Part shown: in pieces, positions 3,694 through 11,792 of the stretch
Position numbering within the stretch: the first letter of the stretch is position 1
How the letters are laid out: each line of letters begins with the position of its first letter
Virus record (IMG/VR): IMGVR_UViG_3300036830_000417
Coordinates: 1-27,510 of that record
DNA: 27,510 nucleotides
Strand: one strand, 5' to 3'
Source of the DNA: a virus
Translations under genes and position numbers: made by a program
The notes under the pieces: model-generated
Told to the model about the DNA's origin: nothing
Databases searched by the model: none
The model's input: only the letters and a program-made list of their open reading frames with translations

Positions 3694-4227
3694 GTGAAGC
3701 ATTTTTATCCCGATACTCAGCTTACCTCGGATGAGTGGAAGCAAACGGTAGCCGACTTCAATGGCATGTGTGCTTATTGCCCAGAGGGAAGGTATGAGGT
3801 TATGGAGCATTTTATTGCACAGAGTAAAGGCGGAACGATCCATGTTGGGAATTGCTTGCCTGCCTGCTCATATTGCAATAAGAGAAAATCAGATCTTACA
3901 GGTCCTGCTCTCATTGGGCTGTTTGGTGAGGAGTTGATTAGTCGGCTAAAAGGGTATCTCGAGTCTCGTTCTGGGCAAGTCATAGAATGGCCGAGCGATA
4001 CTTCTATGAAAGAGACTGGTGTACGGCTTTGTGTCAAAGAAGTCGCACTAGCCCGGGGTATAAGGCAGTATCAGTTAGTCGAACTGAGTGGAGTTGGCAC
4101 TTGGGTGATTGCTCGCTATTGGAATAATAATATCCAGAGAGTAGATTTAGAGCAATTGGGGATGATAGCGAAGGCGCTAGGTGTTAGCCCTGGGGATCTG
4201 CTTGAAGTAGTAGATTCTGCTGCGTAG
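3694..4227 (+). CDS. HNH nuclease fused to XRE-type DNA-binding domain
   Basis: Residues 26-66 form a zinc-ribbon HNH nuclease core: C26-x2-C29, E38-H39 (catalytic His position), K-G-G-T (45-48), N53, then C58-x2-C61-N62-K63-R64-K65. Residues about 107-172 look like an XRE helix-turn-helix: VKEVALARGIRQYQLVELSG, then NNNIQRVDLEQLGMIAKALG, VSPGDLLEV. HNH nucleases are usually single-domain or joined to other modules; a C-terminal repressor-like domain is uncommon. The GTG start has AAAGAG about nine bases upstream. It sits alone between two copies of an intergenic repeat, suggesting its own regulation, perhaps by itself. A homing-type or defence nuclease that also binds its own operator is an inference. 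Confidence 0.8.
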   Translation: MKHFYPDTQLTSDEWKQTVADFNGMCAYCPEGRYEVMEHFIAQSKGGTIHVGNCLPACSYCNKRKSDLTGPALIGLFGEELISRLKGYLESRSGQVIEWPSDTSMKETGVRLCVKEVALARGIRQYQLVELSGVGTWVIARYWNNNIQRVDLEQLGMIAKALGVSPGDLLEVVDSAA

Positions 4228-10609: not shown

Positions 10610-10648
10610 AGGAGAGCATTCTGAAAAATGGGTGCTCTCCTTCTTTTT
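10610..10648 (+). terminator. Intrinsic terminator
   Basis: AGGAGAGCA (10610-10618) pairs perfectly with TGCTCTCCT (10633-10641), followed by TCTTTTT. Ends the excisionase-like unit. Confidence 0.8.
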
Positions 10649-10661
10649 GCTCATTTCGAGA

Positions 10662-10679
10662 TGCATGACGGGCATGAAC
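10662..10679 (+). repeat. Cassette-border repeat, copy 1
   Basis: TGCATGACGGGCATGAAC, located 14 bases after the T-run of a terminator. An identical 18-bp copy is at 11793-11810 and an 11-bp copy at 10830-10840, all in the same orientation and context. Confidence 0.65.
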
Positions 10680-10683
10680 AGGG

Positions 10684-10712
10684 GTTGACAAATATGATAT
10701 CCTTGCTCTAAG
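10684..10712 (+). promoter_or_regulatory. Candidate promoter of the small RNA
   Basis: TTGACA (10684-10689), 17 bases, TCTAAG (10707-10712; four of six consensus). The same GGGGTTGACA block occurs at the promoter at 11859. Transcription would start near 10719. Confidence 0.5.
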
Positions 10713-10718
10713 TCCGTC

Positions 10719-10814
10719 TGGAATTGAAACGCTTTTTCCCGATTGCAGAGCACGCAGCCCGTCAGGGATTGAAACATTCTCAGAAGTAGCGCCATTCATC
10801 GTGGCGCTTTTTTT
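10719..10814 (+). ncRNA. Putative small RNA with two CRISPR-repeat-like units
   Basis: No start codon opens the only long frame here, yet a promoter-like sequence precedes and a strong terminator (10788-10814) ends the interval. It contains two units of a short hairpin plus ATTGAAAC. Unit one is TCC-GTCT-GGA then ATTGAAAC (10713-10730; its first bases are near or just before the predicted start). Unit two is CCC-GTCA-GGG then ATTGAAAC (10758-10775). The units are exactly 45 bases apart and about 21 of 31 aligned bases agree. The outer stem pair changes from T-A to C-G, keeping the stem. ATTGAAAC after a small stem is the form of many type I and III CRISPR repeats, where Cas6 leaves it as the crRNA 5' handle. 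The spacing is too short for a normal spacer. A repeat-mimic anti-CRISPR RNA, or a relic array, is an inference. Confidence 0.5.
10788..10814 (+). terminator. Strong intrinsic terminator of the small RNA
   Basis: AGCGCCA (10788-10794) pairs with TGGCGCT (10802-10808), loop seven bases, followed by six more T residues. Confidence 0.85.
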
Positions 10815-10829
10815 GTGCCTATCTCTAGA

Positions 10830-10840
10830 TGCATGACGGG
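10830..10840 (+). repeat. Cassette-border repeat, copy 2
   Basis: TGCATGACGGG, 15 bases after the terminator T-run of the small RNA. Shares the preceding AGA-type context with copies 1 and 3 but diverges after GGG. Confidence 0.6.
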
Positions 10841-10877
10841 TTTTTGAGACATGCCAGAAAGTCATCTTGAAAAGGTA

Positions 10878-10913
10878 TTGACAATCATCTTGAATATATG
10901 TTATTATTCAAGA
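10878..10913 (+). promoter_or_regulatory. Promoter with 9-bp inverted repeat operator
   Basis: TTGACA (10878-10883) and TATTAT (10902-10907), 18-base spacer. TCTTGAATA (10888-10896) and TATTCAAGA (10905-10913) are perfect inverted copies with an eight-base gap; the right arm overlaps the -10. Reads into the gene at 10950. Confidence 0.65.
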
Positions 10914-10949
10914 GTACCAAGTGAGGTGCAAAAATTAAGGAGAAATCAA

Positions 10950-11291
10950 ATGACCCGCAATTATCGCCCGTCAGGATACTATGTCAGTCGCAACACATCC
11001 ATCCAAGAAATTGAAGAGGCAGAGGAGCAAGACAGGATTGCATCTCAGGGAGAGCCCGTTCGTCTCTGTTGGTCTGTGCCGATCCCTGGATGCTCTGCTC
11101 TCCGTTTCATCGATGTCTGGTTCGATGAAGGCGAGTTTTGCATGATGGTAAATAGCCAGTTTTCATCTTATCCTGTTAGTGCTATTAAGCCTTGTGAAGT
11201 GTCAGGAAAGCCTGAGATCGTCGCTCGACTTGGGAATGTCGGACTTACAGCAGAGCGTCGTGATGCGCTCTTGAAGATGGTGGAGGAATAA
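10950..11291 (+). CDS. Hypothetical protein, 113 aa
   Basis: The start MTRNYRPSGYY is chosen because AAGGAG lies eight bases upstream and the promoter at 10878-10907 would be inside any longer version. The middle reads PVRLCWSVPIPGCSALRFID, then VWFDEGEFCMMVNSQFSSYP, beta-rich with several Cys. No family is recognised. It forms a two-gene unit with the next gene, one base apart, closed by a terminator at 11746-11778. Confidence 0.65.
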   Translation: MTRNYRPSGYYVSRNTSIQEIEEAEEQDRIASQGEPVRLCWSVPIPGCSALRFIDVWFDEGEFCMMVNSQFSSYPVSAIKPCEVSGKPEIVARLGNVGLTAERRDALLKMVEE

Positions 11292-11778: not shown

Positions 11779-11792
11779 GCCCACCGCAGAGT

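Follow-up and report, generated by a model that had tools for sequence, protein, structure and literature searches.

A candidate tandem CRISPR-repeat mimic RNA, Racr-like in character, encoded by a phage with probable links to Ktedonobacteria

We consider a putative small RNA gene in the window, the 27.5-kb virus record that is analysed here over its whole length. The gene holds two copies of the 3' part of CRISPR repeats of its presumed hosts, and similar genes are present in five more phage contigs; for these reasons, its product is probably a decoy that ties up CRISPR machinery. In this reading, a small non-coding phage RNA mimics CRISPR repeats in tandem and, much as the RNA anti-CRISPRs (Racrs) do, would engage Cas6 and the type I-D effector. 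The units, their identity to host repeats, the arrangement of promoter and terminator, the recurrence in phages and, for one pair of relatives, the conservation of units over linkers can be read directly from the sequences. The initial annotation had left three options, a Racr-like RNA, a two-unit decoy and a decayed mini-array, and the two-unit decoy is the best supported of them.

Results

Layout of the small RNA gene

According to a protein scan, the window encodes a tail tape measure, a tail spike, an endolysin, an excisionase and an FtsK-like ATPase. The tape measure and the endolysin mark it as phage, and no cas family is found among the window proteins that were scanned (a subset of its ORFs). 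Two units are located on the plus strand, TCCGTCTGGAATTGAAAC at 10713-10730 and CCCGTCAGGGATTGAAAC at 10758-10775, and their period is exactly 45 bp, as first reported. Unit 1 has the hairpin TCC-GTCT-GGA followed by the 8-nt handle ATTGAAAC and matches the 3' end of a CRISPR repeat, while unit 2 has the hairpin CCC-GTCA-GGG followed by the same handle and matches a Thermogemmatispora repeat. The units are unlike at 3 of 18 positions, and their stems (TCC/GGA and CCC/GGG) are one compensatory pair apart. Between them is a 27-nt linker, the "spacer" of the element (10731-10757, plus strand); its stretch 10745-10757 looks like the 5' portion of a repeat. A pattern search of the whole window finds GGRATTGAAAC at the two unit sites only, and 400 order-3 Markov simulations of it yield not one case of two hairpin-plus-ATTGAAAC units within 70 nt.

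The gene lies between two terminators and ends in a perfect one, again as the initial annotation described. The excisionase-like gene upstream ends in an intrinsic terminator (10610-10646, plus strand, a 12-pair stem and then a T-rich tail), which isolates the small RNA gene from it; the gene's own intrinsic terminator (10788-10815, plus strand) has an 8-pair stem (10788-10808) with a 5-nt loop and T7. The promoter-like sequence that had been noted stands in its -35 part, a perfect TTGACA hexamer (10685-10690, plus strand) that is also found 5' of the units in four of the related contigs (L017, L140, L208 and L210). Its -10 part does not fare as well: the candidate TCTAAG (10707-10712, plus strand, spacer of 16 nt) is weak, is missed by the promoter scan and abuts unit 1, and a start about 7 nt downstream of it would lie inside unit 1.

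The compensatory pair change had been taken as a sign of conserved RNA structure. The change itself is real, but folding of the whole RNA gains only modestly over shuffles (z = -1.4 to -2.1), and the minimum-energy fold of the window RNA contains hairpin 2 and lacks hairpin 1. Given the repeat matches described below, the change reflects natural variation among the repeats, of which one sub-family has TCC/GGA stems and another CCC/GGG stems. A search of the element against Rfam gives no family, a tRNA search of it gives none, and a DNA similarity search for the region and the element in phage and plasmid collections gives no match. For the gene that follows (10851-11291), no relatives were found.

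The small RNA gene sits between the two copies, at 10641-10672 and 10809-10840, of a 32-bp direct repeat (81%). Each copy runs from a terminator T-tract into GATGCATGACGGG, and at 11791 the 13-mer recurs a third time in nearly the same form (GTTGCATGACGGG); one possible role of the direct repeat is that of an operator, another that of a cassette boundary. At a distance from the gene, window positions 3694-4227 encode a protein with both a Cro/C1-type helix-turn-helix and a motif of HNH endonucleases, and an HNH region related to this protein is present in the L017 phage contig (L154, 7529-8374).

Match to CRISPR repeats of Ktedonobacteria

The 18-mer CCCGTCNGGGATTGAAAC has 22 matching stretches in 84,980 species genomes. 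Nine of the 22 are in Ktedonobacteria (Chloroflexota), namely in Thermogemmatispora, Dictyobacter and strain brp13, mostly within CRISPR arrays, and the arrays have 37-nt repeats with a period of 72-75; the stretches outside the class are scattered singles and look like chance. Unit 1 (10711-10730) is identical at 19 of 20 positions to the 3' end of a CRISPR repeat that adjoins a type I-D cas locus (L133), and unit 2 (10745-10775) agrees with a Thermogemmatispora repeat in 27 of 31 aligned columns, with one gap. These matches are equalled by none of 200 shuffles, and they cover 20 of 37 nt for unit 1 and about 30 of 37 nt for unit 2, that is, from about half to 80% of the repeat. Judged by these identities, the window units are 3' parts of real Ktedonobacteria CRISPR repeats. 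The initial annotation had proposed a comparison with host repeats over more than about 20 bases, which comes out at 20 nt for unit 1 and about 31 nt for unit 2; its view of the stem and ATTGAAAC as the end of a CRISPR repeat of the Cas6 type is borne out by these repeats and by type I-D cas genes with Cas6 in the class. When the match is extended into the 5' half of the repeat, p is about 0.05 for each second unit, tested separately, and the first units are not significant; the resemblance to the 5' half before the second-unit stems is suggestive only.

Of 47 Ktedonobacteria genomes, 29 have Cas6 (PF10040). Csc1, Csc2, Csc3, Cas3' and Cas1d identify the cas loci that were examined (L131, L133 and L136) as type I-D. 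The subtype of each exact matched repeat is a presumed one, since several of the closest arrays have no apparent cas gene within about 17 kb. Among the arrays with CCCGTCNGGGATTGAAAC ends, L037, L045 and L049 appear from their ORF layout to be orphan arrays, with no cas gene apparent nearby. In Dictyobacter aurantiacus, a type III locus (L132, 2188-12353) with Cas10, Csx7-like RAMPs and a SAVED-domain protein adjoins a type I-D locus and arrays whose repeats have near-identical 3' ends.

Host of the phage

The FtsK-like protein of the window has 43-45% identity to one in a Ktedonobacteria genome (G041), and the excisionase has 87% identity to that of the phage contig carrying the L140 element. 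The tape measure, the one structural gene tested, has no match in the 47 Ktedonobacteria genomes, and no copy of the element is found in them. When 555 host spacers are compared with the window, the best matches are at chance level, with no clear protospacer. Given the two protein identities, the tape measure result and the spacer result, we place the host in Ktedonobacteria, at class level at best. Among the related contigs, the integrase of L208 and L210 has about 42% identity to one in Ktedonobacteria strain brp13, and the protein adjoining the L209 element has 58% identity to one in Dictyobacter.

Related elements in other phage contigs

Pattern scans of IMG/VR, together with a search within related records, give five further phage contigs with the same layout (L017, L140, L208, L209 and L210): a promoter or leader, two to 4-5 units with differing hairpins, and usually a terminator. 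The units are mostly spaced by 45-61 bp and never by the 72-75 of the host arrays. L017 has TTGACA-17-TATCAT, two CCCGTCTGGG units 49 bp apart, of which the second is without the AAAC of the handle, and a perfect terminator. L140 has TTGACA-17-TATGCT and a terminator; its three units, spaced by 57 and 54, have the stems CCCGTCTGGG, CCCGCTAGCGGG and ACGGCGTGCCGT. L208 carries four clear units and a broken one, the last unit being without handle, and a terminator; its unit 1 matches the repeats of Thermogemmatispora and of genome G026, and its unit 4 those of genome G008. L210 has three units, the last two 23 bp apart, with promoter and terminator as in L208, and L209 has two units 60 bp apart with no clear sigma-70 promoter. 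The promoters of L017, L140, L208 and L210 (TTGACA-17-TATNNT-type) are clearer than that of the window.

Stem complementarity holds for each of the 16 listed units, which is partly a selection effect because the scan patterns preset the stem of one unit per element and the GG of the next, leaving the 5' arms of second units free. A comparison of L208 with L210 gives identities of 46/48 in the promoter, 46/51 in the units and 39/40 in the terminator, against 24/58 in the linkers. As this is a single pair with boundaries set by hand and with array-like unit shuffling visible, the constraint is supportive and not conclusive.

Two further hairpins may be mentioned. The second linker of L140 (about 1512-1545) contains the perfect hairpin TTGGTCA-GAAA-TGACCAA with a GNRA-type loop. 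On the minus strand of L210 (about 2077-2098 of the reverse complement), the third-unit hairpin CACGCGATTGAGCGA recurs unchanged within the terminator of the element, as it would after a duplication of terminator sequence beside a handle. Other scan matches were set aside: a viral scan with a window-derived 17-mer has 21 matches, all of them but L017 chance-like and mostly within apparent coding sequence, and the double-unit matches L031-L036 and L157-L160 are coding or tandem repeats on inspection. The nearest relatives of the excisionase (L027-L029) have no unit at the corresponding place; the contig of L026 has its unit element, which is L140, elsewhere.

Discussion

Proposed mechanism

We infer transcription, Cas6 cutting, binding and inhibition along the following lines. 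The RNA would be made from its own promoter and ended at the terminator at 10788-10815, and the host Cas6 would bind the hairpins and cut just 5' of each ATTGAAAC. In type I-D systems, the cut by Cas6d falls after the stem-loop, and the resulting 5' handle has 8 nt and the 3' handle 29 nt; mature crRNAs are 39-49 nt long, with two lengths (45 and 39 nt) in Synechocystis and one of about 49 nt in S. islandicus (PMC10212523). Under these processing rules, the predicted product of the window (10723-10767, plus strand) consists of ATTGAAAC, 27 nt of linker and CCCGTCAGGG, begins with AUUGAAAC and ends in the 3' hairpin. Its predicted length of 45 nt, like the 49 nt predicted for L017, lies within the range of the type I-D crRNAs. 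Such a product would have the 8-nt 5' handle and the 3' hairpin of a crRNA around a short, apparently untargeted insert, and may resemble a loaded guide without a usable spacer. Together with uncut repeats, it would occupy Cas6 and the effector proteins of type I-D (possibly also of type III); fewer real guide complexes would then be formed, and the phage would escape immunity. Since the last unit would give the product only its hairpin, the loss of the handle with the hairpin kept in the last units of L017 and L208 fits Cas6 processing. The unlike units in one gene, each near a different Ktedonobacterial repeat, would allow one RNA to cover several CRISPR loci or hosts. It is an evenly balanced question, in our judgement, whether Ktedonobacteria phages carry such multivalent RNA anti-CRISPRs, in the form of dummy guides cut by Cas6, each matched to a different type I-D (or III) repeat and disarming several loci or hosts.

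Several findings speak against the decoy reading. The start at the weak -10 of the window could fall in unit 1 and cost the RNA its hairpin 1, which is also outside the minimum-energy fold; the folding z-scores are modest; the units are partial repeats; L209 is without a clear sigma-70 promoter; and the 47 Ktedonobacteria genomes yield no copy of the element. The weakest points are the -10 box of the window and a host placed at class level.

Alternative explanations

The element may instead make a targeting guide RNA, either as a minimal CRISPR array or in the manner of CreA/CreR, with a linker that sends the host Cascade to a promoter (of the host cas operon or of a phage gene) or to a rival phage. 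CreA is built of two degenerate repeats that give a 5' handle of 8 nt and a hairpin at the 3' end (PMC8501985), viral mini-arrays against related viruses are known (PMC6858448), and the linkers of L208 and L210 differ, as spacers would. Because CreA-type RNAs share this two-repeat anatomy, we searched for targets of the linker. Neither a seed match nor a full match of the window linker is convincing in the window, the sampled cas loci or the related phages, and phage records give no convincing match either; the linker's best matches in the 47 Ktedonobacteria genomes have 2-3 mismatches, so that nothing beyond chance is found across all these sets. A 15-nt seed match shared by two Ktedonobacteria genomes is antisense within one conserved large gene and was dropped. 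Moreover, the linkers (27-43 nt) partly resemble the 5' half of the repeat, and only about 10-14 nt of true spacer would remain in the window. We regard a targeting guide as unlikely. A functionless fragment of a decayed host mini-array, left by recombination, would agree with the incomplete repeats and with the weak window promoter, but we consider it quite improbable. The layout of promoter, units and terminator recurs in several divergent phage contigs with differing hairpins, the stems of all listed units are intact, the spacing never equals that of the host, and the divergence between L208 and L210 is in the linkers and not in the units. The recurrence in five more contigs and the conservation in this pair thus disfavour the decayed mini-array that the initial annotation had allowed.

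Two further explanations do without an RNA decoy. The repeat-like DNA adjoins an excisionase-like gene, as it might if it were a DNA-level decoy for spacer integration by Cas1-Cas2 or an attachment site steering phage integration to CRISPR arrays. What is kept, however, is the 3' Cas6 hairpin and the handle, whereas integration begins at the leader-proximal 5' end; the promoter and terminator are strand-specific and there is no leader, and such a role at the DNA level is very doubtful. That the units belong to a protein-coding frame or to an operator repeat in the DNA, with no RNA involved, is scarcely credible, even though minus-strand frames of 93-105 codons run across the window units in the ORF list and the 13-bp motif recurs around promoters. 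The spacings in the relatives (49, 57, 54 and 50 bp) break the frame and are not all multiples of three, so that the minus-strand frames make no credible protein; hairpin and ATTGAAAC match the CRISPR repeats of the presumed hosts, and plus-strand terminators follow. The choice of an RNA over a translated frame, made at the outset, is in this respect upheld.

If the decoy reading is correct, RNA anti-CRISPRs would extend to type I-D, for which this would be the first RNA inhibitor candidate, and would include a class that falls outside solitary-repeat surveys by their very design. The published RNA anti-CRISPRs are single repeats that come from a filter removing clustered and partial matches, and a tandem class may have been overlooked. 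The decoy reading also raises a testable question: does the mimicry of several repeats at once widen the host range of a phage, with the host Cas6 itself making the inhibitor? The units give a hint of which CRISPR systems an uncultured phage meets.

Comparison with known systems

The mini-CRISPR arrays of viruses (SPV1/2 and phages, PMC6858448) are likewise short series of repeats in cas-less viruses that depend on host machinery. Theirs are identical, full host repeats, and most of their spacers target related viruses (PMC6858448); the window-type repeats are heterogeneous and truncated, mostly at 45-61 bp spacing, and no target is found for them. In place of full-length, near-identical repeats with normal spacers, the window has a period of 45 against 72-75 in the host and units that differ at 3 of 18 positions, and its linker has no match to a related virus in the phage collection or the related loci. 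With repeats truncated and unlike and with the wrong spacing, the window element is no mini-array.

The CreA/CreR RNAs (PMC8501985; PMC12737573) are similar in having two diverged, degenerate repeats around a spacer analogue, with the 8-nt 5' handle and the 3' hairpin kept for Cas6, and the window element has this anatomy in full. It differs in its location on a phage and outside a cas locus, in having no toxin or cas promoter as partner, and in the up to 4-5 serial units of its relatives. For a PAM-flanked seed of the CreA/CreR type in creT or a cas promoter, the sampled loci and the Ktedonobacteria genomes give no convincing match. As for counter-defence against type I-D, predicted here, AcrID1 is the only type I-D anti-CRISPR named in a 2023 review (PMC10212523); it is a protein acting on Cas10d, whereas the present candidate is an RNA that is predicted to act on Cas6/Cas7.

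Published Racrs titrate Cas6 and Cas7, which end up in dead sub-complexes (Camara-Wilpert et al. 2023, PMC10651486), and in the part of that paper drawn on here the inhibitions are of types I-C, I-E, I-F and V-A, with I-D not among them. The window element shares with the Racr/SRU group a CRISPR-repeat-like, intergenic small RNA gene just 3' of a candidate promoter on a mobile element in which the scanned window proteins include no cas family, a match to the repeats of the presumed host group, and a predicted sequestration of Cas6 and Cascade. The upstream promoter has its perfect -35 and weak -10, and the host group has type I-D loci with matching repeats, the host being placed at class level. 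SRUFinder discards clustered or flank-similar repeats and needs at least 90% identity over at least 90% of the repeat length (PMC10651486), and such a filter would miss window-type elements. Unit 1 has 19/20 identities over 20/37 nt and unit 2 has 27/31 over about 30/37 nt; a solitary repeat has no second one within 100 bp, and here the units are 45 bp apart, with up to 4-5 of them in L208. The differences are therefore those of a tandem of two to 4-5 units in place of one, of units that mimic different repeats and are each shortened, and of crRNA-sized products with both handles that Cas6 would yield. In the open-access literature, we came upon no description of repeat mimics that are both tandem and heterogeneous. 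On paper, the window element is Racr-like and lies outside the published definition of solitary repeats, and we set it apart as a tandem repeat-mimic form of RNA.
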